A stretch of DNA of 64,000 bases from Ianthella basta (taxonomy: Eukaryota > Porifera > Demospongiae > Verongiida > Ianthellidae): contig OZ025884.1 of assembly GCA_964019415.1 (NCBI GenBank), forward strand, positions 1,700,001-1,764,000, read 5' to 3'. Below the pieces are notes generated by a model. That model was not told where the DNA came from. It did no database searches and saw only the letters and a list, made by a program, of their open reading frames with translations. Made by a program: the position numbers and the translations under genes. This document shows, one piece after another, positions 42,664 through 61,257 of this stretch (position 1 is its first letter; each line of letters opens with the position of its first letter).

Positions 42664-45600
42664 TTAGGAGGGTCTAAACCCATGACTGACAGTCTGAGCA
42701 CACACCTTTTCACTCTGTACCTCTGCAGGCAATCCCATTTTTGTGGTATATCTGTATCTGACCCTTCCTGGTCTGTACTCTTCTGCCACCCTCACAGTGG
42801 TCATCTCTGCAGACTGATGTAGGAGCCATTGCTCACAGGACTCCTCTTCTTCCTCATGGACAAAGTCTGCCAGCCAACGCTGGTGGTAGTAGTTGAATTG
42901 ATGCAGTTGGAAAGCAGTGACTGCACCCTGCATGGAGTACAAACAGGAAATTATCTTCTATACAAGTCCGTCAAGCACTAAAAAACCCTCTATATAACAT
43001 GTACTCAATGAACAACCCTATGCACCACACACAATTACAGATGTACAGCCAGATATATGTGTATGAGCACACGCACACACGCCATATCTCACCTGCCTTC
43101 CTTTCTTCAGTGCCCTTCCCCGGTGCATCCACTCTGTGCTACTGACTGCCTTTACCAGTTTTGTTTTAGGATCAGTCCTAAATTCCACTATCCCATCCAT
43201 CAGAATACTACCCTCTGCCAGCTCCATGGTGGAGGATGGAAGGATGGCTGTGTTTTGATCCTTGGCCACTACTTTCAACCACCAGCGATGGTGGTGAGCC
43301 CTACAGAGCAGGACAACTATATCACACAACATATAGTAGAGCTGTTTAGTTGCACAGTGCAGTAGAAGTATGCAGTGAAGAAGTGTTACACATCTCAAAG
43401 TGAATAAATTATACTGTACAGTCTGAACGTAGCTGCATTATCAGTAGCTTAGACCTAGAACAGAAGGTGTGTAAAATAGGTACCTCTTTGGAGGGCCATC
43501 TCTTCGAGCTGTTTGCTCAGAGTTCCTGTCTGCAACATCCTACAAAAAGGACACACATACACTGAACTTACGCTGTAGCTATACGTACATGTATGCATTT
43601 ACACAAAGGGTGAACCTTACATTCCACTCCAGCTGTGGGTAGTTCTCTGTGATGAATTCTACAATGGGCTGTCGTCTCAGCCTGCGAGCAATGTCCAGGC
43701 AAGTCTCGCCATTCCCATCCCTGTCAAGTACTCTGTCTCCAAACATGGGACAGAGGTACTGCAAGACAGGTAGGTGACCTCTGTAGGCTGCCAAGTGGAG
43801 GGCATTCTGGGAATTCTGGAGGAGATTAGGGTCATGTGTGACTTAGTGTGTGTGCGCTTGCACGCGCGTGTGTGGAAGTTTAATGGAAACCAATCCATAT
43901 ACGTATATACCTTCATTATGTGGAAGATGTCTCCCTCACTGTACTCCACTAGTTTTCTGACCAAGTCAGAGTGCCCACGTTCCACCGCAAGCAACAGAGG
44001 TGTCCTGCCATCCTGTACGTGACAAAGAAAATTCACAGCACTTTAAATTGAAGAAATGCATTTTAGTATCACTCCATACACTCTCCCACCACATTCCCAC
44101 TTTCACCTATCATTCCCATTCTCAATTCTCATTTCTACTCTTCTTCCTCCATTCCACATCACACCCTACGTTCCAATTCCCATCACCTTTCCCGTCCCTC
44201 AAGTGCATTTCACTACTCTATGTATGTATGCCTTCCTCCCTACCTTGCCTTCCACATTGACAAATCTTTTCACCAGGAGCTGTACCACAAACTGATATCC
44301 CTTTGATGCAGCTTTCAGCAATGTATTGCTAATGGGGTCCGAGGTGGGCCGGCTCTGTTACATGTAAAAGATGTGTGAAAGAGAAACATAGATACAAAAT
44401 TAGAACCACACACAAAAGGTAAGGGAATGGAGGGAGGAAGGCAGGTAAAGACAAGTGAGCGAGGAATGAGGGGTGAGAGAGGAGAGATGAAACAAGTGAG
44501 GAATAGGAGAAGGGAGGAGGGAGGGAGGGATGGAGGATTGGAGTTGAGGAAGAAAAGGAGGGGACTGAATACATACCACAGATACACACCTGAGCAATCA
44601 TTTCCATGTCATGGTTGTATTTCTCAGTCTGCTGAGTCAGCTTCTTCTGCAGGGCACTTATCTCAGACTCTAGATTCTCCATCTGTTGTGCCTGAGCAGT
44701 CAGTTCAAGTACTGTGGACTGGACAACTGGTTCTGAAGGAGATGGCAGTGGATGAATTGGTTGGGAGACAGATGTATGGGGACTAGGAGGCTGGTCCATC
44801 TGCAGAACAAAAAGTGGTATCAGGCATAACCCCAGGTAGTTGTCGTAGTCGTGTTAAATGTATCTTCCCCACTTAGGCCAGATCCAGGTAGATCCAGCCA
44901 AGTCAGGGCTCACCATTCAGTGACATGCCTAATCATACAGAACCTAAAATTTGCAAGTGCAATGTGTAACGTTCTGCCTCAGGTTTCTCTGTGACATTGT
45001 TCTGCCCATCCGAAAGTGCGAACATGAAGAATGTCAAGACCCCAAAGAAGAGAATACATACCAGAAGGTGCAAAGGAGTCATCTAGACTTTCACCCACAA
45101 AACCACAGTTGAGATGAACGATAGAGTGCATGCTTCTGTGGGAGTTGTGGTTGTTGGGAAGGATCCATGCACCACTCTTGTCTGTGCTCATTCTATGCCA
45201 GTTCTTTCACTTGATACGCCATCTGTTAGCACAGCTGCTGCCAGTGTGCTGGATGCATCAACGGGTGGCAGTGAGGAGCTGGCAGTGTCGGACACAGTGA
45301 TCTACATCAGCAGTGAATGTGTGTGTGGTCATGTTGAGTTTCAACTGACTAAGGAAAGTGAGTGACCCAGTACTGAGATACGCAACCATGCCAGGTGCTG
45401 CCCTTACACCAATCAGGATGCCTAGTATGAAGATAGCAAAGAGTGCCCCCTTGATACGACACCAGAAAGTAATTAGTGTCCTGCAAAAGTGCATGTGAAT
45501 GTAGAAGGGAAGCCATGATTAACTGTGCACCAAGGATGCTGTTACCTTTGGATTGCTATTGAGTTGACCCCGGAGGTGGTTAGAACAAGACCTGATTAAC

Positions 45601-48600
45601 CAAATTATTATAATTAGTGTTTTAGCATGCCTTTTATTTCTGTTTCATCAGCATTTTATTCCATGTTTGTTGTTCATAATGTTAGGGGGTTAGTGTGTCC
45701 GTGCGTATGCTTGTATTGTACCTCCCAGGATTTGCATGAAATGCCACTGGTCTGGATGCAGCATTCCTCTTGACAAATTTATCTACGTACTTATCTAATC
45801 TTCCTCACCTGTTTCCTCAGCATTAGCAGTAGTCTTTCCTTAAGGCTAGTCATCTCTTGAAGGATTTGACCCTCCTCCTCTCGACTGGCCTTCAGCTTGA
45901 TCTGTAAGGCTGTAATATCATTAGTCAGGTCAAATCTCTTTTGCTCAGATCTCTTCAATTCATCCTCCAACTCCTGGACATGGGACAGCAGCTCATTGCT
46001 ACCAGCCTCTTTCTCCTCAACTCTGTTTCCCTCCTCCTTAACTTTGGGAGGCAACTTTCCTTCAATCTGTGCAGCAAATGGATGAATGTAATTGGACATC
46101 ATTGCAGACATGTATCTAGTATAATACAGTATTCTCTCTAAACTTCCCCTTTCTAAATTTGTCATCCAGAATTGAAACAATGCAAACTTACTTTAAATAA
46201 TGACAAATACCACCTTCTTTAATATTTGTCACATTACTGAAAAAATCAAGAGATACAAAGCATATTCAACATTTTGTCACAGTAGATAGGTAGATAGCCT
46301 CTAGTTGCACCACACGCAATACTACCTCTTGAAGTTGCACAAGTATGTTATCTGCACACAGCCACAACATGCTTACTGGACATTTTTGGAGCAGACGAAC
46401 TCCTCACAGCTGTTGGCATCAGGAGTTATTGCAATGTGACAGTCTGAAACTACTGCCTGAACTGGGACTGCATAAGCCACCAATTTACCAAGCAATGCCC
46501 CAAACAAAACATTCTAAAGTTTCGCAGGTCACCCAAATGTTCCACAGAGACTCTAACAATCCAACCATTTGTCCCATTTGGCCATAATGTCCATTCCAAA
46601 TGCAACAAGACATCAATTGATGAATTTTTCAGGGCAAAATGGTTGATGAATGGTTAAGACTTAGGATTGCCTCAAACATCAAACTTCATATGCCGTTCAC
46701 TCAGTAGCATAGTTAAAATGGCAGTATACACTGGAAATCACTTAAGCCACATGCTTGCACATGCAGAAATGACAAAGATGAAGTGAGGAATGTTTGACTG
46801 TCTCCAAGGAAGACTGAGGGCTCCTCTTTTATCAGCTATCAGTTCAAGAAGGTATGGACAAAGACAATGAAAATGAAGGAAGATGACAAGAATGGCGAGT
46901 GTCTGTATGTCGTAAAGCTTAGAGATTGCTTATTTTGCCTCTACTGATGTGGCAATTCTGTTTCAAAGTAACACAGATTGGCATTAAGAGAAAGTACACA
47001 AATATGCACGAACTTAATGGTTGATGGTGGGCGTCACATGTGATATAGACATGAAAAGCAAGTCAAGTTCAACCACTGCTGTAGGTCCGCTGAGAAAGGT
47101 AGTCTGCTCAAAGGTTTGTAGCGAAAGAAAACAGCTCATAAACCATGCCAACTTCTATGTCGTGTAAACTTGTCATTTGTGCTACGTGTCTTCATAACAT
47201 ACGACGCATTCGCACCTAAAGGTTAAAGTGAATGCAGTACAAACTCCACGTAGGACATATTAGCTTGAGTGTAGTCTTCAGTATAGTTAGCTTTTTATTG
47301 ATGCTAGATGGAAAATTATACATACATAGAGTAACGTACTATATCTAGAGTAAGCTCCACTCCTTCATTATCTGCAGAGTCATCCACAGCTTCCTCTAAG
47401 TGGATGGGAAAGACAGGAATGGAATTAGCACCAATGTCCTAGTGTATACGCAAGATCCTCCTCCACCCCACCCACCCCCCATGAAGGTAAGGAGTCACCA
47501 GAAGAGTGATCAATTGTTCCAGCATGAATCATGTTACCTTGATGCTCACTGTTTTTAATTACTGATGAAACAAACATAATGATAAAGAACATTTGAGAAA
47601 GGTAAAGACTCTGAGTTGCAACTGGTTGCAAAAGGTTAGCAGATACAATATAACGCCAATTTCAGGGTGAGCCAACTAGGTTAAATACAGTGTTTATAAT
47701 TTAATTGTCATTACGACTGGTCCACTACTCTTCTGCACTGCTCCATCTAATTCTGCATGCCATAATCCTTTACTAAGCTTCCTATTCATTGGTGCTTTCA
47801 CGATATCACACTTCTCTCCTTACAACTTGAAAGGTGTCACCAGACTGCTACATAGTAATCTGTACAATCTATAAACACAATTTGAAGCTGTATGGTCATC
47901 TACAACATGACTGCTTTCACAACGAACATAGTGACCTACAGACTAATTTACGTTATCTTGATTGGTGGCTGATTGTGCAAACAAATCTTGCGGTAAGTAG
48001 TAAATGTGCCATATTAGGATTATAGTTCTGTGTATGCAGCTGCTACTGAGGTGGACTGACAAAGGGAATTAGTCATTTTCAATTCCACAACAACAACACT
48101 GACTCATGGTAAAACACACATGTACAGTGCACTAGCTTGCCTTGTTCTGACCAGGGTTGCATAATTTCACAATGAACAGTACGATACTGCAATTGCTTCT
48201 GCATAAAAGAACAAAGCATGCACATAAAATGACACTGCCCAAAAATGAATAACACAAATGCTTTTATACAGCATGAAACTGCATGTGCATGCACAGAAAA
48301 GTATACACTCACTGCTGTGTCGGGGTCAACCAATGCGTACACCTGGTAAGGGAGGGCCTGCAAGCGACAAAAGAAGTAGCAAGAAGACAAATTATAGACA
48401 CCTTACCACACTAAGAACATAGCAAACAGCACACATTTTATTATACAGTGGAACCCCTATAATGCTGACACCCTTCAGAGCAAGAGAAGTGTCCTGATTA
48501 TAGGGGTGTCCGCATTTCAGAGGTATGGCTTATATGCCCATATGTTAAAACAATCATCTAGTATGAATGAAAAGTATCAAAATAAGACGAATTTGTAAAG

Positions 48601-51600
48601 GTAGAGGTGGTTCGCTCGAGTACTTGACTCACGCACTATTTCTGAAGACAATTCTAAAGGGTAGCTGTTCACGCTGAATTCTCCCATGTTAATGACACTT
48701 TCAAAACCCTTAGTATAGCCGATTTGCGTCACTCGTCAACTTCTGTGCTGTTCCTGTCACTTGTCAGAGGTAGTAGCCATTTACTGGCAGATAATCAAAA
48801 TGTCCAGATTATCGGGTGAGGTATATACAGAGTTGTATAGGGCAGTGCAGAGGGCGCTGTCTGCGATACGGAATAACGGGGTGTCTGCATCTCAAGGGGA
48901 AGTTTATACAGGTAGAATAAGGCCAATCATTGGGACTTCAGAAAGTGTCCGCATAATCGAGGTGTCCACATTTCAGGCGTGTCCACAAGGCGGGGTTCCA
49001 CTGTATTTCATTACATCATATCAATTGCACTCTGGTAGCAACACGGTGAATATAGACTTAACTCACTGAGTCAGACTGTATATACCTATGTACATGCATA
49101 CGTGTAAATATACTAGTCAGTGTTCATTACTGTATAACACAATCATAAGGTAATTGGGGGTAATTTTGTAATCTATTGTGTAGCAAACAATAAGGCAAGA
49201 AGCTACAGGCTGCCCATCTTGACTGGAAGTGCACCAACTTGTGTGGAATTTCTCTACCAAATACGAGCGTACATACACTCTTCACTATTCAAGCGCATGA
49301 ACTTGATGTGGGTCATCGATATGAGTTGGGGCAATTCTGCAAATGAAGGAAATTATCAAACACACAAACTCCGGTAAGTGAAGTTGTGCTGAAGCTGGTG
49401 CATGCTGTCAAGCAAGCCTCGTTTACTAGCTACACGGTGGTAGCACCAATACTAGCTATTGATGGAATGTGCCTGAAGCTTAGTGCATTGTTTATCATCT
49501 AAGTAGTTTAGACTGCAAGTAAAAATTGTTATGGATTTCGGTGTATGCTCATTAGGCCCACAGAGGAGACTGGTACTTGTGGCTACCACTGGACTGACAG
49601 TGCTCTAGTCACAATTCATTGACTGTGCTTTGCAGGACTTTGCCCTTTCTCTTTATTCCAGCGAAATGCCAGCAGATTGTTGAATTGAATGAATTGTTGG
49701 ATTACCCAATTATGGAATTACCTCCGCTTATCTTAACAATAAAAACAAAAGTATGACTGTCGATCACTGTACTTAACATCATGGGAATTCAAGTATGAGG
49801 AAACTTGCTAAGTTAAACGCTACCCTAGCACAGAATATGCCTGCAGGATACTGTAACAAAGCTACAAGAGAACCAGCAGTTAAAACACACACCTTTGTTG
49901 CACGCACAAAGTCCATGTTGCCAATGAGCCCGCTGCGGAGGGCTACTTTGAAGTGCTGAGCCAGGAGCTGGGACACATTCAATTCAAACAGACCAGGTAT
50001 TCGTACCCTGGTCACACGCAGCTCTTGATATGCCCACAGTGCATTCTTTTCAGCTGTGTATTGGATTATGTTCTGCATAAAGGCCTTATTTATTAGGAAG
50101 GTGATTGTGGTACTGTTACCAGATCGAATTCCATTAGCTGAGATCTTGCCCAATGGAATTTTGTAGGCCTCATAGACAAGCAAGACCACCATGTCTTTGC
50201 AATCCATGCGTGTAATCTCATCCAGGTCCCTCGCTGAAGTGATCTCAAGTGACACCTGTGCCTTGATTTCCTCATCTGTAGTGGTACCCTCTTCAAGGAA
50301 ATCCTTCAACTTGGATGCTCTATTGTAAAAAAGTAAATAAGATTCATATCGTTGCAAAAGTTTTGTGGCTAACAATTTTTCTTCCTTTGGTAGGCAGTTG
50401 ACAATCTTCAACAATAGATCTGTATCCTCCCACATCATTGGAACATGTAATTCCTCCAGCAGCTGTGCGACGTTCAAACCATCAGGGATACTATTTTTAT
50501 CTCCTGTGTTCCTCTTCAGCTGAATGGACGCCCGTGCTGATCTTGCCATGCTAATCCAGCACTGCTTATTGCGCTCCAGGATATGCAAAATACGCATATA
50601 GGTGCCAAGATAAAGATCCTTCATCACATTAGATGGCCTCAATTCACGATACTCAGCTTGTTGCAGTGCTCTGATAACGTATCTGCGCTCGTCCTCTTCC
50701 ACATCAAACTCAGAGGACACACACACCAATGAAGATTCTGCATAAAAGATGATGAATATGCTGACGAACAACTGACAAAATAGCTTGAGAAATGTGCAAT
50801 GCAGCTCACTAGTGTACCCTCCACCGCTTATTCTAGCCGAAGGAGCAACAGTACCTTCACTAGAGACTGATCTCTTGGACCTCACAACTGTTTGGGCTGT
50901 GTCTGTGTCTGTGTCTGTTGGGGTGTGGGATAAGTTGAAAATACTACATTCCATGCATGAACAACTTAGGCTCCAACTAATCAAGATGCACTCCTACCTA
51001 CATGCATACAGAATGTACCAAATGGAGATGGGTAGAGCCATCCATGTACATTTCAATACAGTTAGTAAAAGAAGCCAGGTTAATTCTAAAGCATCTTGCT
51101 CTCATGAATCCTTTGATTGGTTAGCAGCTATGTCTGCTCTCCCCGTGGCAAGAAGCAATCAGGTTCATTCTAGTTGGCTAGCAGCTGAGTACTAAATCAT
51201 CAAGAAAAATCAAAGTAGAAAGGTCTCTTCTTGGATGACAGCATGGAGTTCCATAAATTGCTATTGACATTTCGTCCACACTTGTACACAAAAAATATGC
51301 CAATTAGACCTTCATGTTATTATTACTAGAATAATAAAATTTTTCTACAAAAATAGTAAGGATGTAGGGATGGCATAAAAAGGACAGAAACAAGTAAAGG
51401 CTATTACACAGTGGAGCATTAACCATGGTCCCTACATGCAAGAATGTCGCACCGGATAGTGATAGAAAATTTTTACTATTCTAGTTTCTGTACTTTTTAT
51501 AGTGTATATAGCTAGCTAAGCTGTAGCTACATACTAACCCACAATCACATATAGGTCGTTGATGCTGCTATTGGACATATTTCTGTATCCCTGGGGCTCA

Positions 51601-54600
51601 AGGTTTCGGGTAGCTATGTAGCTACCTGGGTTCTGCTCTAAGCCACAGAAAAGAACGCAGAAACGGGGGCCTGGAAGTCAACTGGCAGTAATTAGAAATG
51701 CCAGGGGGAATTGCATGACCACAGATGTCCTTCAAACTGCATGCAAGTTATTAGCTATTGTCCAATGTCTTTGACTCAGGCGAAGAGCTCCAGTTGTTCC
51801 AGAGCAACGGCAAGGAGTCCACGGTCCGTCGGTCGCTTTGAACAGCTGCTCTCAATGGCGAAGTCTTGCCTGTTTCATCCGGTTTTAATTACGTCATCCA
51901 AAAATGGCGTCCATTCTCCCTTGGCAATGCACCGCGTCGTGAGTCAATGTGAGCGTCTTCTAAGCACTAAACTATATGCCGACCCCCCTAACCTACAAAG
52001 GAATGCAGCCAGCCAAAATTGAAGTAATATGGTGCAGGAATTATTCTCCTGGTCCCTTCAGAAAAATAATAAGAGGAAGAAACAAAACATGGGCGCTCTC
52101 TACATGTAGGCGCACCTTCGCTAGGAAGCAAGGTTAGTTATATGCTCTGTTCAGTCCCCGCTTCTTCATGGGAAGCTTTGTCTGTCAGTTTTTGGTCCTA
52201 TTCAGGAGTAGCTCGACTTTTTGTTTGTATTACAACATACAAACAACCACTGCCATCCCTACATAGACAGCACTACCGTGCTGTCTGATATCTACGTATT
52301 CTAATTCACTGGTCAACACAGTCAATGCCTGCCTCAAGGCATGCATAAATGCAGGGCAAGCCACCATGCAAGCATAAAGCAAATGTATACACGACTAATC
52401 ATTTTGCAAACCACCAAATGTCAGAAGAAACCCACAAATACATGACAAATACACAGATACAAAGATACAATGTCATACACATAGGGTGTGGCATCATACT
52501 TCGGCAGGCATGATAGTTTGGCCGCCAGTTCTCCACAATGAAATGCAGCCTGGGTTTTAAATCTTGCCACACATGGAGACTGGGAGAATCTAGCTAAGGG
52601 CTGGGAAGAAGGGGATCAGGGCTGCTTTCGTTGAGAAGTTAGACCGTCGAGAACAAAGCAGCCGAGGTAATAATACTTCAGACGAAATGCATGATACTTC
52701 GGACACAGCTTCAATCATCGCCAAAGCAGGTGTGTTTGCAAGTTTGCCATCGTCGGCATTGAGTCTCATCCTTCCCCTACCCACAGCAGCAGATTGGATT
52801 TGGAGCATTCAACCATTGCACTGTGGTGCTCAGCAATATTTGGTTGGGTAGGGGCATCATACTTTGGACGATGGTAAATGGAAAAAGTTAAAGTTTACTG
52901 CTCTGCAAAGAGTATGATCACTTACCTTTCCTTGTCTCAGTACATTTTATTGTTCCAAGTGCATAAGGAGTGGTGTCTGGGCTTCTGGCCCTCTAATAGC
53001 TATTCTACATATCTTGCATCCCCATGTAGTGAGCCGCCATTTTTTCCAATTCTCAAACTAAGCTCAAGTGGTCACTTACTGTCCATTAGCCGAATGCTCG
53101 CTAGCTCAGTCAGCGCACCCAATTCTAATCATTACCAGGTTCACAAACATCACAGACCAAAGCCAAAGACATGATTAAACTGGACATCATACTCGTTTGA
53201 GAAGCAGGACCAAATTATTTGCAGCTTTCTGCCCATACGAAGTATGATGTCCCTACCCAACCCAATTTCTCTGAGCACCACAATGTAACGGTTGAATGCT
53301 CCAAACCCAATCTGCTGCTGGGGTTGGGGCAAGCATGAGACTCAATGCCAACGATGGCAAACCTGCAAACACACTTGCTTTGGTGATGATTGAAGCTGCG
53401 TCCGAAGTATCAGTCCTTTCGACCGCTTTGTTCTCGACGGTCTAACTTCCCAACAAAAACAGCCCAGATTGCCTTCTTCCCAGCCCTTAGCTAGATTCTC
53501 CCAGTCTCCATGTGTGGCAAGTTTGAAACCCACGCTGCGCTTTGTTGCGGAGAACTGGTGGCCAAAGTACGATGCCGCACCCTACAGATTCTATACACAA
53601 ATGTATATCAACCATTGCAAACACTTGTACTTGAATCATCTATATTGTGTCCTAGCATTATCACATCACACCAAACTGGGGGTTCAACACAGTTGAAAGA
53701 ACTTATTCCTGAGTTAGAGAGCTTTAACACAGCATAATAACCTTACGGTATCCCATGGGTATCGCAGATATTGTACCATTATTACAATCTCTTCTGCGCG
53801 TTTGGCACAGGGTAATTTGGTAAAAGCAGTAGTAGTGATAAGATGGCGGCGACAGAACTCACATAATGACCGATTATTTGCCAAAGCAGGAAGACGACAA
53901 ACAGGAATAAGACGTCGCCCCTTCGTAATTGATTGCAAGAAGCAGCTAGACCGGTAGCGACTTCCACCGCAGCAGGTGACAGGCAGGTCTGTTCATGTCC
54001 GACGAACTCATGAGGCAGGAGGACATTGTCGGCAATGCTAAAACATACAGATGAAGTTGTTGGTATCTTTGTATAGAGTGCCAGCCGTATAAGTCTCCAC
54101 AGAAGAAGCAGGAGACGTGGTCAAAGGCATGCTCGTGTTGACAAAGCTGGATAAGGTTAACGGGGATAATTCCTTAATCTATTGAGTTCAATGCCCTAGA
54201 AAGTGATGATGTAAGAAGCTACAGGCGTCCAATCTTGACTGGCAAAGCAACAACTTGTGCGGAGTATCTGTACTTATTATGAGCCTACAACTCTTCCTTT
54301 TTCAAGTGCATGATCTAGAAGTTTTAATGGGGTGGCGTTTGAGCCAAAATTATTATTTAGCCATTGTATAAAATTTCATGTCATTATATACTAAACCATG
54401 CCATTATATACTATACCATGTCATTATATACTATACCATGCCATGGTTTAGATTACCATGCCATTATATATTGAACCATGTTGGGTTTGCTAAACCATAC
54501 CATTATATACTATATCATGCCATGGTTTAGCATACATTGCCATCATATACTATACCATGCTGTGGTTTAGTAAGCCAGAGGAGAAGGAGCGTTGTTACAC

Positions 54601-57600
54601 AATGCAGCATGCGCATGATGCTCCATCTGTATAGATTAGCCCACTTCCGGATGCCATTTTCAATGCCCCAGAGAGCAGTGGTTGTTTGTATGCTGTGATA
54701 CAAATGAAAAGTCGCACTACTCCTGAATAGGACCGAAAACTGGCAAACGAAACTTACCACGAGGAAGCAGGGACTGAATAGTGCACATAACTTACCTTAC
54801 TTCTCAGCGAAGGTGCACCTACACGTAGATAGCATCCTCGAAATTTCTCACATTTCGTCTTCTTCTTCTCTTTGACAGCTGTAGCACACGAACCAGAAGG
54901 ACCAGGAAATACTTCTCGCACCATATTGCACCATTTTTGGCTGGCTGCATTTCTTTGTAGATTCGAAGGTGGCATGAGTTAGTGCGGAAGACGGCGCTTG
55001 CTACAACTCCTGCCATGTTGCTTGGCCAAGCAGGATGGACGCCATTTTCAAATTATGAAATTAAACCAGATAAAACCGGCGTGACTGGTGCCATTGCTAT
55101 CTGCTGCGTACAGCTTCCGGAGGCTCCTTCTTCCGTTGTTTTGTACCACTGTGGAATTCTTCGCCTTGCTCTATGACTTAGCGTGGCATTGGCTTGTGGA
55201 ATGAATTATTTACAATGTCAATACAATTTCTCAAATGCAAATTGCAGCTAATTTTATCAGGAGCTATATCGTGCCTTCTAGCTCATGCTCTATAAATAGT
55301 GCAGAAACTAGAAATAATTAAAAATTGTCTACAAAAATAGTAAGGATGTAGGGATGGCATAAAATAAAGAAACAAGTAAAGGCTGTTACACAGTGGAGCA
55401 TTAACCATTGTCCCTACATTCAAGGGTGTAGAACTATACAGTGCGACATTTTTGCATGTAGGGACCATGGTTAATGCTCCACTGTGTAACATCCTTTACT
55501 TGTTTCTTTACTTTTTATGCCATCCCTACATCCTTACTATTTTTGTAGAAAATGTTTAATATTTCTAGTGGTATAGCAGCGCAACAAAATGGCGGCATTT
55601 GGGTATCTTAATACACAGAGAGGCAAAATTCCTACCCACTCCAGTGCTGTACTTATCGAATTGCCACTGGCACTCAGATCCTAGTCCTTCACGTATGATT
55701 ACGATTTCAATGATTACGATGATACGATTTCAAGTCAGTCTTAGAAAATGGGGTCAATAGGTGTCCTGTGTCATGTGCTAGGAGCGCACAATAATTGTGT
55801 GGGAAGAGAATAAAATAAGAACTAGTGTATAAAATTTAAAAGAGATTTAGGAATGGCCAGCAGAACAAGCATAGAAAAAACTAACAGTAAACAGTAACTC
55901 AACACCACAATAAACCACATTTCCGTGAAGTTCACTCTGCATTCCTAATTTCTTTGTAGCTGGATAGACCCAATTGTCTATCCCGCCTTTCACATGACCA
56001 ACTTCAAACTGGTTTTGAAAGTGTTTTATAAACGGTTTAAGTCGATTGCATTCACATTGGCATACAGCGGTTCAAAGGCAATGACATCATTGTCCTGTTG
56101 TTTAGTCGATTAGGTGTGAAATTAAAGATGGTGGCGAGTGAATGCTCATTTGTTTCGTGGCAGTTTGCTGCAGCAGACAGAGACGAAAACTTTCAAGAGA
56201 AAGAATAAGAAGGATAGAAGCTATGTGAAGATGATTTCAAGCCTTTTAAGACCAGCAGGAGAAGAAATTGCGCGAAATCATGGCCACGATTGTCGTTGAT
56301 TGAAACTTATGAAGTACGAAGCAGAATCAGCTGCTTTGGGTCAGGAACAGAAGCCAGTCCTCACCAGACCAGCATTTGCGTCTCACGTTTGCTCCAAATC
56401 TGGCAATTCTTTCCTCTGGTAGCCATTTATTGCACCTCTAAAACGGTTTAGCCAAACCAGATTATCTTAAACCTGCTCCCAAGCAGATTTATGGAAGCCA
56501 GTTTAGAAACTGGTTCAGTGATTTTAAAACGGTTTAAGAACCAATGTAAGTGCCAAATGAATGTGCTAAACTGGTTTGACGTGACCATGTGAAAGGGGGG
56601 AATAGCTAGCTAATCCCACGTAGCTACAAGAAAACTAGGAATGCAGAGTGAACTTCACAGGAATGTGGTTTATCATGGTGTTGAGTTACTGTTGCTTGTT
56701 TCTATGCTTCTTCTGCTGGCCATTCCTAAATCCCTTTTAATTCTAAAGTAATTTTTATAAACTAGTTTGCACAGTTTTTGTCCAAAGGATTGTGGCTACA
56801 GCAGATGAATACCTGCGCTGACCAATACCCCTGCCTTAAATTATAGATGAAGACTATGCAGAACTTCGAGCAAAGTTATGCCACTCTAGATAAACCAGCT
56901 GCAGTGTTACTATAATGGCATACCAGCACAACAAATTGGCGGCATTGGGGCATCTTAGAATAGACAGGGAAGAAAACTTCCTATCAGCTCCAGCGCTGTA
57001 CTTATCAGATTGCCACCGGCGTTCGGATCTTAGTCCTTCATGTCCGTATGCGAGTCCTCATACACGACTTGGGTCCATAGGTGCCCTGTGTTGTGCGCTA
57101 GGAACGCACAAAAATTCAGTGGTAAGAACATGAAAAGAACAAATAGGTACAAGCAGCCAGTGGCGAGTTTCTCATGCCTGCACTCCAGACGGGATTTAGC
57201 TGCACTGTTGTCTTCAATATGTTGAAAGAAGCGTATCCACCACCTTCAATTGTTCTTTGCCACCGCCGTTTGTCTATTTTGGTGGAAGCACACTGATACA
57301 TTAAAATAGGAGACACCAATTTTATCGGACACATTCCTAAATAGACGTCAATAACGTGATGTCTGATTTGTACATAGACTGTACTTTTGGAATAATTGTG
57401 ACATCACAAGAGGAATGAAGAATACCATTGAGGATCAAGTACACAAGAAGTTGGTCTGTCCTGCAGTGATTCGTCATACGATAGCACGATTTGAGTATTA
57501 CTCAAGGGAATAAATTCTGTAGTGTCGATGTCAGTGAGGATGGGGATGGGAACCCAGACTCAATCACTTGGAATGGAGCTATAACATTACAAACCCTCAG

Positions 57601-58670
57601 AGTGCTAACAAGTTGGTGTGATGATAGAACAGAGAGGACAAGAATAGGCAGACTGCATGGAAACAGCACAATATTAGCTGGTACATATAGTCATAGGCTA
57701 AGCTAAGGGTGTCCTAGCTTGGAGTTTGAAAGGCGCTTGAAACTACAGAAGCTTCACATACATCCTTACATGTGTGGCAAGCTACAGTGAAGACATATCA
57801 TCAGTGACATGTGCTACAGAGAGGTCCCAGAGGTGCATGGTTTCCCTTCCATTTTTTAAGGTGGCTCATGACAATCACAACAGCACTGCTCTACGTATAG
57901 TCCCTTTGTTCTACACCACGAAGAATTGGTTGATTCTACGCATACGTACAACACCATCTTGTTGTCAGATGTCAAACATTTTCACATGCTTAAGATCACT
58001 TTGCAGATGTTCTATATATGGACAGGGTTCAGATGTACTATATATGGACAGTGCACAGATGTTTTACGGACTGGGTATGCACAGACATTTCACAGTGAGC
58101 AGCACAGTATTCCAAGAGTATTGTGCAGAATATCAGCAGATTTCAATGAACTTGTGTGTAAGAAACTTGCGACTTGTACCATATGCACGATGCAGAGCCT
58201 ACTTTAAGTGGCTTATTGTGGATTTGTGGAGACAATCAGGCATTTATCCATGAAACTCCATACCTTGTACCCAAATATCTGAGGGCATGTATGGTTGAGA
58301 CCTTCATACAAAACTTCTGTGCTTCCATCTGTGCTCCCTCACTCAAAACACCTACCATTGTCTAGCCTTTGCTTCATTTCCTGCCCCAAAGCATTCATCT
58401 TTGCGTTGCCTTCGTAGTCAATGAGAATGCCACAAACTTTCAACAAGGCTTCTTTGGTGCACTTGCCTTTGAGGCACTTGTGCAGATCTTGGTTCTTCTG
58501 TGTCATACTGTCGATCTTTCTGATTCTCGTTAAATCACCATCCGTAATAATATCTTGATGCTTAAGTTCGTAAATGATGGCATCTGCATCCACATCAGTG
58601 ATGAAACACTGTCGGAAGTCGTCAAGGACTTGTTCAGCTGCATATGTGGAAAGGGAAGAGTCATGCAACA
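42664..58670 (-). CDS. CARD, novel region, coiled coil, ankyrin-repeat protein
   Basis: Exons that join in phase on the minus strand: CARD ~58670-58356; 50914-50855; 50737-49893; 48357-48313; 46066-45809; 44799-44590; 44354-44244; 44012-43911; 43815-43621; 43539-43484; 43300-43093; 42927-42664 (stop). The product is about 890 residues. The CARD reads DVDADAIIYELKHQDIITDG. A 281-residue region of unknown family follows (NVMKDLYLGTYMRILHILER, LLEELHVPMMWEDTDLLLKI). Then come a coiled coil (VQELEDELKRSEQKRFDLTN), four ankyrin units (DGRTPLLLAVERGHSDLV, NALHLAAYRGHLPVLQYL, GNGETCLDIARRL) and a C-terminus rich in Trp, His and Glu (RWWLKVVAKDQ, FVHEEEEESCEQWLL). There is no NACHT domain. A role as a cytosolic adaptor or sensor in CARD signalling is inferred. 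The joins from 50914 downward are well supported. The 7.4-kb intron joining the CARD exon rests only on phase (1 to 1) and order; the start codon was not found. Confidence 0.6.
46067..48312. other. Intron region, no further exon certain
   Basis: Lies within the CARD/ankyrin gene. A frame at 47425-47560 on the minus strand (SEHQGNMIHAGTIDHSSG) might be an exon, but its splice sites are weak and the flanking exons already match in phase without it. Confidence 0.4.
48446..49003. mobile_element. Tigger-like MITE
   Basis: CAGTGGAACCCC at 48446 and its complement ending at 49003 (GGGGTTCCACTG), with TA on both sides (48444-48445 and 49004-49005). Internal GTGTCCGCAT words occur near both ends in opposite orientation. 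It is 558 bases without coding capacity, in an intron of the CARD/ankyrin gene. Confidence 0.85.
49150..49400 (+). repeat. Dispersed repeat R3, copy 1
   Basis: Shares AAGAAGCTACAGGC, ATCTTGACTGG, CAACTTGTG(T/C)GGA and TCAAG(T/C)GCATGA with 54160-54340, in the same orientation. A diverged repeat of about 180-200 bases with no coding pattern. Confidence 0.55.
51345..51461 (+). repeat. Half copy of a foldback MITE
   Basis: Matches the left arm and loop of the complete foldback element at 55329-55548, starting CTACAAAAATAGTAAGG and passing GGAGCATTAACCATGGTCCC. The right arm is missing or badly degraded. Confidence 0.7.
52486..53580. mobile_element. Foldback element with ~340-380-base inverted arms
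   Basis: Arms 52486-52868 and 53238-53580 are inverted copies of about 85 percent similarity by eye. Shared words include GGAGACTGGGAGAATCTAGC, AAAGCAGG(T/)GTGTTTGCA and GTTGGGTAGGG. Both outer ends read GTG(T/C)GGCATC(A/G)TACTT. The spacer of about 370 bases shows no coding pattern. Confidence 0.75.
54160..54340 (+). repeat. Dispersed repeat R3, copy 2
   Basis: Direct diverged copy of the repeat at 49150-49400. Confidence 0.55.
54376..54567 (+). repeat. AT-rich minisatellite
   Basis: About eight units of roughly 22 bases built on CCATGCCATTATATACTATA, with interspersed CCATGGTTTAG words that make local palindromes. Confidence 0.8.
55329..55548. mobile_element. Complete foldback MITE, 95-base arms
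   Basis: Arms 55329-55422 and 55452-55548 are near-perfect inverted copies (CTACAAAAATAGTAAGGATG at the left, its complement at the right) around a 29-base loop. It has no coding capacity. A half copy lies at 51345. Confidence 0.9.
55567..55815 (+). repeat. Dispersed repeat R4, copy 1
   Basis: Shares CAACAAA(A/T)TGGCGGCATT, GCGCTGTACTTATC-like and TAGTCCTTCA words with 56908-57130 in the same orientation. The two copies bracket a long-TIR element, so one reading is insertion with local duplication. Confidence 0.65.
55819..56767. mobile_element. Long-TIR element between the R4 copies
   Basis: About 150 bases at each end are inverted copies: ACTAGT, GGAATGGCCAGCAGAA, ACAGTAACTCAACACCA, GAAGTTCACTCTGCATTCCT. 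Toward the centre further AAACTGGTTT / AAACGGTTTAA words occur in both orientations. No transposase is visible. Confidence 0.7.
56908..57130 (+). repeat. Dispersed repeat R4, copy 2
   Basis: Second direct copy of R4. The frames in it are not conserved between the copies, so it is not coding. Confidence 0.6.
57131..58355. other. Intron DNA, no exon recognised
   Basis: Lies within the proposed first intron of the CARD/ankyrin gene. At 58005-58095 three loosely repeated units of the type CAGATGTTCTATATATGGAC occur. Confidence 0.4.
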
Positions 58671-60439: not shown

Positions 60440-61257
60440 ACTTTTTTCCTTCGATATTAATCACAAACATACAACAACAAAAAATTAAATGTCCTGCCAT
60501 AGTTTCTTGTGCATTGTCATGCATGTACATTGCAAGTAACAACTCATACTATTGTCGATTAAGATGGTCTACGTCATACTATTGGACCAATCAGATTTTC
60601 GCAGCTGGTTTTCTTTTGAGCAATTTCACTGCTAATGAGTAAAGATGCGGATGTTGCTACAAGGAACAGCTAAGTCGATTTGCTAGCCAATCAGTTGGGA
60701 TTCCGATTACACTTAAATGCCAGCAAATTGGTGTCAACGAATATTAGACCACTCAGCACTTGGGGAGTTTCGCACCCTCGAGCCTTGTGATCTTCAGATA
60801 TGCATTTCAGGCACCAAAATCAACCACTGTACCTAATACTGTGCAAGATTTCAACATGTGAGCCAGTGCTAGTCTTGTACCCGACGCTGTCCGTCGGCTG
60901 CCAATGTCGTACGCTGTGCCGGCGGACAGGGTACGAGGCTAAGCCAGTCGCTGCCTTAACAAGCAGCCTAGGCAGTAGCAAGTTAGTGTGCGGCTGCCAT
61001 AACCGAGACTATTACAGAAAGTCGGGATGAAGTGGGAAGTTAATCACAAGTTACCTGAGTGTTCATTATTCAGTTTCTTTCTCTTGTGAGTAGGGCTAGC
61101 TGAGTCAGTACTCCGCCTCGATTCCCTTTCCGCGCCCCTCTTTAGCGCTGGCTTTGAACTAGAGGCGCCTTCCATTGTCAGATTAGGGGACACTCCCAAA
61201 CAACCACTCTCCCGCTACTATTGTGCAATCGTGGGTTGCCCACGCTCCGTTGCAAAA
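60440..61257. other. No gene recognised; inverted GTCCGTCGGC motif
   Basis: At 60878-60931 the words GTACCCGACGCTGTCCGTCGGC-like and GCCGGCGGACAGGGTAC form an imperfect inverted repeat. From 61130 GC rises, which would fit a promoter for the + strand gene downstream. Confidence 0.4.

Follow-up and report, generated by a model that had tools for sequence, protein, structure and literature searches.

A candidate chimeric CARD-ankyrin gene in the sponge Ianthella basta, with a body from a large and mostly unnamed family

A stretch of 64,000 nucleotides from the demosponge Ianthella basta (assembly GCA_964019415.1, contig OZ025884.1, positions 1,700,001 to 1,764,000 of the forward strand; hereafter the window) carries on its minus strand, at 61175-42664, a gene model for a protein with a CARD, a central domain, a coiled coil, ankyrin repeats and a conserved C-terminal region. 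On balance, this locus is best read as a chimeric gene, in which exon 1 and the CARD exon of an NLR-type gene would be spliced in frame to a central-ankyrin body. Exons 4-15 are parts of a single gene evolving under purifying selection, with an exon order that recurs across the genome, and the central region is not unique but belongs to a sponge family that is large and, for the most part, unnamed.

The model, obtained by exon joining, comprises 15 exons and a 2,871-nucleotide open frame for 956 residues plus stop. Acceptors are AG and donors GT, bar one GC; all phases are compatible, and no premature stop, frameshift or broken splice site is present. The exon chain proposed in an earlier note on this DNA was correct in the exons it listed, to which exon 1 and a small exon 3 were added, and its succession of CARD, central region, coiled coil, ankyrin repeats and unrecognised C-terminus is found again in the rebuilt model. 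The ankyrin assignment is confirmed by a Pfam match to Ank_2 (E 2.5e-18), while the CARD, central region and C-terminus of the model return no Pfam match at E <= 10. As the note had also held, NACHT is absent from the Pfam families listed for the parts of the model, which in this respect does not belong to the NLRs.

The unity of exons 4-15 is concluded from a paralog at C3:3.41-3.42 Mb, 80% identical over the central exon, which keeps order, frames and splice sites, its central, short, coiled-coil, ankyrin and C-terminal exons following one another in order. In the window, the central domain, here called A-type (exon 4, 49893..50737, 281 residues), is followed by three short exons (5-7; 48357-48313, 48198-48141 with the GC donor, and 47395-47340), by the coiled coil (exons 8-9; 46066-45809 and 44799-44590), by ankyrin repeats of four units as judged by eye (exons 10-12; 44354-44244, 44012-43911 and 43815-43621), by a linker with no counterpart found in the C3 paralog (exon 13, 43484..43539), and by a conserved C-terminal region of ~143 residues extending to 42706 (exons 14-15; 43300-43093 and 42927-42664), the residues beyond that position being doubtful. 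Acceptor and donor dinucleotides are identical between both copies in 9/9 exons mappable at both ends, including the sites of exons 5-7 and their GC donor, with exons 8, 13 and 15 incompletely mapped. The pairwise ratio of non-synonymous to synonymous substitution rates (dN/dS) is 0.41 over 705 codons, a value that can also reflect constraint on the partner.

The same linkage is seen genome-wide. Within 10 kb of the 105 A-type exons, a coiled-coil exon like exon 8 lies downstream on the same strand in 43 cases (the window's own included), upstream in 1 and on the opposite strand in 0. Within 16 kb, the exon-15 domain lies downstream of 19, upstream of 4 and on the opposite strand of 0, and in 17 of the 105 the coiled coil and then the C-terminal exon follow downstream in order. 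Given this linkage, the dN/dS value, and the order and splice sites of the paralog, a split of the coiled-coil and ankyrin exons into separate genes, the outcome that the earlier note had named as fatal to its model, is unlikely.

The central region had been described as novel, which does not hold, since the exon-4 protein has 105 matching places in the 209-Mb assembly, its own locus counted. Two of them are 80-81% identical to exon 4, twelve 37-48% and the remainder 24-35%, in some cases over a portion of the domain, and internal stops are absent in 100/105 and present in 5/105. No second A-type match occurs within the window, and relatives in prokaryote genomes were not confirmed in one scan with six short patterns. 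An alignment of 26 of 30 fetched loci (A3; L011, L014, L015 and L030 (one stop) omitted) contains 11 invariant columns, among them Ser209, whose codon at 50114-50112 is invariant in 26/26 aligned copies. The C-terminus remains unrecognised as regards Pfam, although its exon-15 part has 26 other matches in the genome, 2/27 C-terminal copies holding stops.

Exon 1 and the CARD exon are, as far as homology indicates, the 5' unit of an NLR-type family. Exon 1 (61055..61175), absent from the earlier description, starts with ATG, encodes 40 residues of basic character and ends in phase 1, compatible with the CARD exon (exon 2, 58356..58637), which has phase 1 at both ends. At E <= 1.2e-5 exon 1 has 21 further copies, of which 13 lie on C17, 7 on C19 and 1 on C8, and at least 11 of the 22 copies, counting the window's own, which has none, show a listed NACHT within 5 kb downstream; this proximity was assessed with 22 of 102 NACHT matches plus the window's own, at approximate coordinates. 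The exon-2 CARD has 39 other relatives in the genome at 71% identity or more. The window itself holds an NLR on the minus strand, with a CARD exon at 15466-15191 and a NACHT exon at 14716-12980 (PF05729 E 6.3e-23; used as a query, it found no second copy within the window). Between this NLR and exon 2 the CARDs are 75% identical, so that the shared CARD proposed in the note reflects a real relation. The likeness goes beyond resemblance, and, with exon 1 and the CARD being together an NLR-type 5' unit, the splicing of the CARD to the central exon is placed in doubt.

Assignment of exon 2 as a CARD comes mainly from its predicted fold. The best structure model, with a predicted local distance difference test score (pLDDT) of 88.9 (3/5 models were poor), shows helices at 2-7 and 9-15 and then five more, that is, a six-helix death fold with the kinked helix 1 of a CARD, and in the structure comparison the high VIA rows are CARDs almost throughout. 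By sequence the signal is weak: PF00619 reached E 0.0045 in 1/20 relatives, and among PDB profiles a designed protein came first (E 0.0067) and ICEBERG next (E 0.3).

Death-fold exons also precede related central exons elsewhere. The surroundings of all 105 A-type exons, of 74 exons of a second kind (B-type, below) and of 110 Pfam CARDs were counted, together with hand-picked 15/150 window-CARD and 30/150 Death matches; the A-type and B-type totals are lower bounds. A Death exon stands upstream of at least seven A-type copies. Pfam accounts for one, at C10:3.06 Mb, and an own profile seeded with L016, L017 and L035 for six (L016, L017, L026 and L035, plus L013 and L020 via L049 and L051), the upstream reading covering 1.5 kb at most other A-type loci. 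At L016 the donor of the Death exon and the acceptor of the central exon are both phase 1, as judged by eye. On C5, a CARD 51% identical to that of the window stands 577 bp upstream of an A-type exon. In a compact gene at C3:3.193-3.201 Mb, a CARD-like exon is followed by central, coiled-coil, ankyrin and C-terminal exons, and the CARD-like donor and central acceptor are compatible in phase 1 and 0.6 kb apart. It is thus very probable that the CARD-central-coiled coil-ankyrin-C-terminal order is also present outside the window, headed there by another CARD-like exon. That exon matches the RAIDD CARD at E 0.084 and, by phmmer, Pfam-CARD frames in L007 and L004 at E 6e-4 and 0.02; its closest relatives among the loci compared (L006 and L008) give PF00619 E values of 9e-5 and 0.0012, under the cut-off. 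Upstream of the compact gene, a separate CARD exon (PF00619 E 2.4e-6) and then another central-like exon are found (L092:4846-6197, minus). Two weakly CARD-like frames upstream of NACHT matches (L041:3-299 and L042:2-307, plus; PF00619 E 0.055 and 0.032) are related to the CARD-like exon of the compact gene (phmmer E 2.5e-14 and 4.2e-14), a kinship by which a second NLR-type CARD may be common to the ankyrin family.

The B-type exon was met at C17:1.190-1.197 Mb, where a duplicate of the window's exon 1 and CARD stands before a different central exon of similar layout, entered in phase 1 as judged by eye. B-type exons occupy 74 places in the genome, and a Pfam CARD lies within 10 kb upstream on the same strand of 34/74, downstream of 4 and on the opposite strand of 0. 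The alignment of A-type with B-type profiles covers both over their full length but is weak (hhalign E 0.011, probability 4%), and their homology is unproved. At C3:11.6-12.2 Mb, B-type exons form a dense array, and many of them have an upstream CARD exon.

The joint on which the chimeric reading turns is intron 2 (50915..58355), 7.4 kb long and containing inverted-repeat elements. The part of the window from position 57366 to its end has its counterpart at C17:1.190-1.195 Mb, in the form of seven collinear pieces, of which six are 84-91% identical and one 70%, and of a further piece in inverted orientation; most of 59.0-60.8 kb lacks a match in that duplicate. Positions 42701-51269 match C3:3.41-3.42 Mb in pieces. 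Intron 2 therefore spans the border of two duplicated segments, whose border region is full of inverted repeats, and the joint between them is uncertain. Exon 3 (50855..50914), with 60 nucleotides, phases 1-1 and the frame kept if it is skipped, is less certain than its neighbours.

The main alternative is thus that two genes have been joined in the model, exon 1 and the CARD being a truncated NLR-type or CARD-only gene, and the central-ankyrin gene having its own unseen first exon and no death fold; this is a serious possibility, though less likely than the chimeric gene. Several observations speak for it and weigh against a single chimeric gene. Beyond the crowding of intron 2 with repeats, the DNA read ahead of the two closest paralogs (80-81%), 10 kb for one and 9.5 kb for the other, contains no recognisable CARD or Death exon, and the same exon 1 and CARD stand before a different domain in the C17 duplicate. 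Exon 1, the CARD and their flanking DNA are homologous to NLR-type and CARD-B-type 5' ends, and may therefore be a leftover. The CARD frame, if read through its donor, meets a stop five codons further on, in the window as in the C17 duplicate, so that a CARD-only product is possible. A Pfam-listed CARD lies within 10 kb upstream of just 4/105 A-type exons (and downstream of 1), and in one of those four pairs, that of the A-type exon at C3:3199323, whose DNA was read, the CARD is followed by another central-like exon and thus probably belongs to a different gene; nearer to this A-type exon stands the CARD-like exon of the compact gene. Moreover, the CARD-like exon of the compact gene reaches PF00619 at E 0.011, below the Pfam cut-off, and shows no detectable relationship to the window CARD. 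This weak exon and the small number of A-type exons with a listed CARD upstream are why the joined gene is not rated higher.

On the other side, the phases of the model are compatible, death-fold-central genes are present elsewhere in the genome, and the CARD is conserved. With respect to its nearest duplicate, exon 2 shows 15 codon differences, of which 8 (7 non-synonymous) could be polarised with ten other CARDs and fell, 8/8, on the other copy, 7 being ambiguous; the pairwise dN/dS is 0.34, borderline against neutrality (P 0.05). This conservation counts against mere debris, yet gene conversion or a life before the rearrangement may explain it. Between 58.3 and 50.9 kb no Death and no NACHT match was found, no systematic exon search having been made there. 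The sole candidate seen for another first exon, near 51.6 kb (ATG and phase-1 donor, by eye), is thought unlikely: it sits between inverted-repeat arms at 51330-51460 and 51884-51927, its flanks are copied near 22.2-22.4 kb, and it is not conserved in paralogs. That one unit or the two of them, 5' and 3', consist of pseudogene pieces in decay, yielding no working protein, is very improbable, given the intact 15-exon model and the dN/dS of the body with its noted caveat, even though stops occur in the 5 A-type and 2 C-terminal copies mentioned and the window has a lone coiled-coil piece at 21.5-21.7 kb.

For the chimeric gene, a course of events can be proposed. The NLR-type 5' unit would have moved beside the central-ankyrin part by rearrangement, the junction now lying in intron 2, and would in this copy be spliced in frame to it. 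The ankyrin repeats and C-terminal region may bind a ligand of microbial or host origin, the coiled coil may bring copies together, the central domain may relay the change, and the CARD may nucleate CARD-CARD assembly with caspase- or NLR-type partners; with a CARD of NLR type, the window gene could act through the partners of the nearby NLR. In two other sponges, genes containing CARD and ankyrin domains are up-regulated in response to microbial patterns (PMC6208332), which is compatible with such a role and silent on the window gene. The window gene is probably a member of a large sponge family of cytosolic adaptors or sensors tipped with death folds, probable immune sensors. More tentatively, and at somewhat less than even chances, it would be a natural chimera whose NLR-type exon 1-CARD unit was grafted, via phase-1 introns and a repeat-rich junction, onto a TRADD-N-like/ankyrin receptor body, giving a sensor able to feed the NLR CARD pathway. 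If so, phase-1 death-fold and central exons would be freely exchangeable, and an immune repertoire would arise by exon shuffling. An architecture that looked like an orphan is in any case one member of a large family, in which CARD or Death exons stand before related bodies, and the locus offers a testable case of NLR-CARD grafting.

Among the neighbouring features of the window, a lone minus-strand coiled-coil exon of the exon-8 family (21743-21519, 37% identity) is either a remnant or belongs to a different gene. A long transposase-like open frame immediately downstream of the CARD-ankyrin gene (41845-39641, minus) is presumably hAT-like, and open frames at 28988-25337 (minus), resembling endonuclease and reverse transcriptase, are taken to be a non-LTR retroelement. 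An open frame at 31929-31465 (minus), without Pfam match, has a Cys-rich motif, recognised by eye, in common with one at L058:2761-3033.

No standard animal family with this domain order was known to the authors of the earlier note, a statement that has to be revised in view of Death-like/TRADD-N/ankyrin proteins published for Amphimedon, whose TRADD-N is a probable counterpart of the central region (Kaur et al. 2021, PMC8195603). Amphimedon is reported to have 357 TRADD-N proteins, as many as half of them with a unique architecture; in most types of architecture 1-3 Death-like domains precede TRADD-N, and a variable C-terminus follows it, ankyrin repeats or SH3-LRR being the commonest. TRADD-N, which is proposed to switch its flanking domains, required transitive searches by those authors for its detection. 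Since order, family size and the invariant Ser fit, the central region is probably the TRADD-N of that study. In several relatives the single central copy lies between a death-fold exon and a variable C-terminus; in the window gene the C-terminal side agrees with this layout, and the N-terminal side depends on the intron 2 joint. The A3 hydrophobic pattern is compatible, by eye only, with beta-alpha-beta-beta-alpha-beta, that is, with an RRM-like four-stranded sheet and two helices; a single-sequence structure model of exon 4 failed (pLDDT 34.7). Against human TRADD, hhalign placed A3 at E 0.003-0.007, above 100/100 shuffles, over only 29-41 columns, with a probability of 6-10% and out of register with Ser67; B-type did no better than shuffles. 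Of the uS motif (a tiny residue, then Ser, at times Cys, in the turn that joins strands 2 and 3), A-type copies keep the Ser in 26/26, preceded by N, D, H, R, Q or C, and B-type copies have Gly and then Ser (12) or Cys (2) in 14/14, the turn assignment being unproved. Profile searches did not confirm the identification: PF13820, PF20694 and PF09034 were not listed at E <= 10 for the 26 A-type or 14 B-type members, PF13820 and PF20694 had no match in the genome (PF13820 none in any control either), and PDB profiles did not return TRADD-N for the central region. Among the titles listed by text searches of a literature library, none besides that study points to this sponge family.

When set beside known systems, the window CARD is 12-15% identical to those of Apaf and CED-4, proteins whose remainder is unlike the window gene. 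With sponge CARD NLRs (e.g. NLRC of Dysidea avara, PMC12909245), the gene shares an exon 1 and CARD of the same family as NLR 5' ends in this genome, that of the window's NLR included; unlike them, it is without NACHT, has a central domain and ankyrin repeats, and shows no leucine-rich repeats. Compared, by description, with the NCOA6-clade TRADD-N proteins of Amphimedon (PMC8195603), it differs in a central region missed by the TRADD-N Pfam models and in a residue before the Ser that is not tiny in A-type copies. With those proteins it would share N-terminal Death-like domain(s), a single central domain and a variable C-terminus, as well as a large lineage-specific expansion and a conserved Ser, whose expected place is between strands 2 and 3; to their layout the window gene adds a coiled coil and a conserved C-terminal region.

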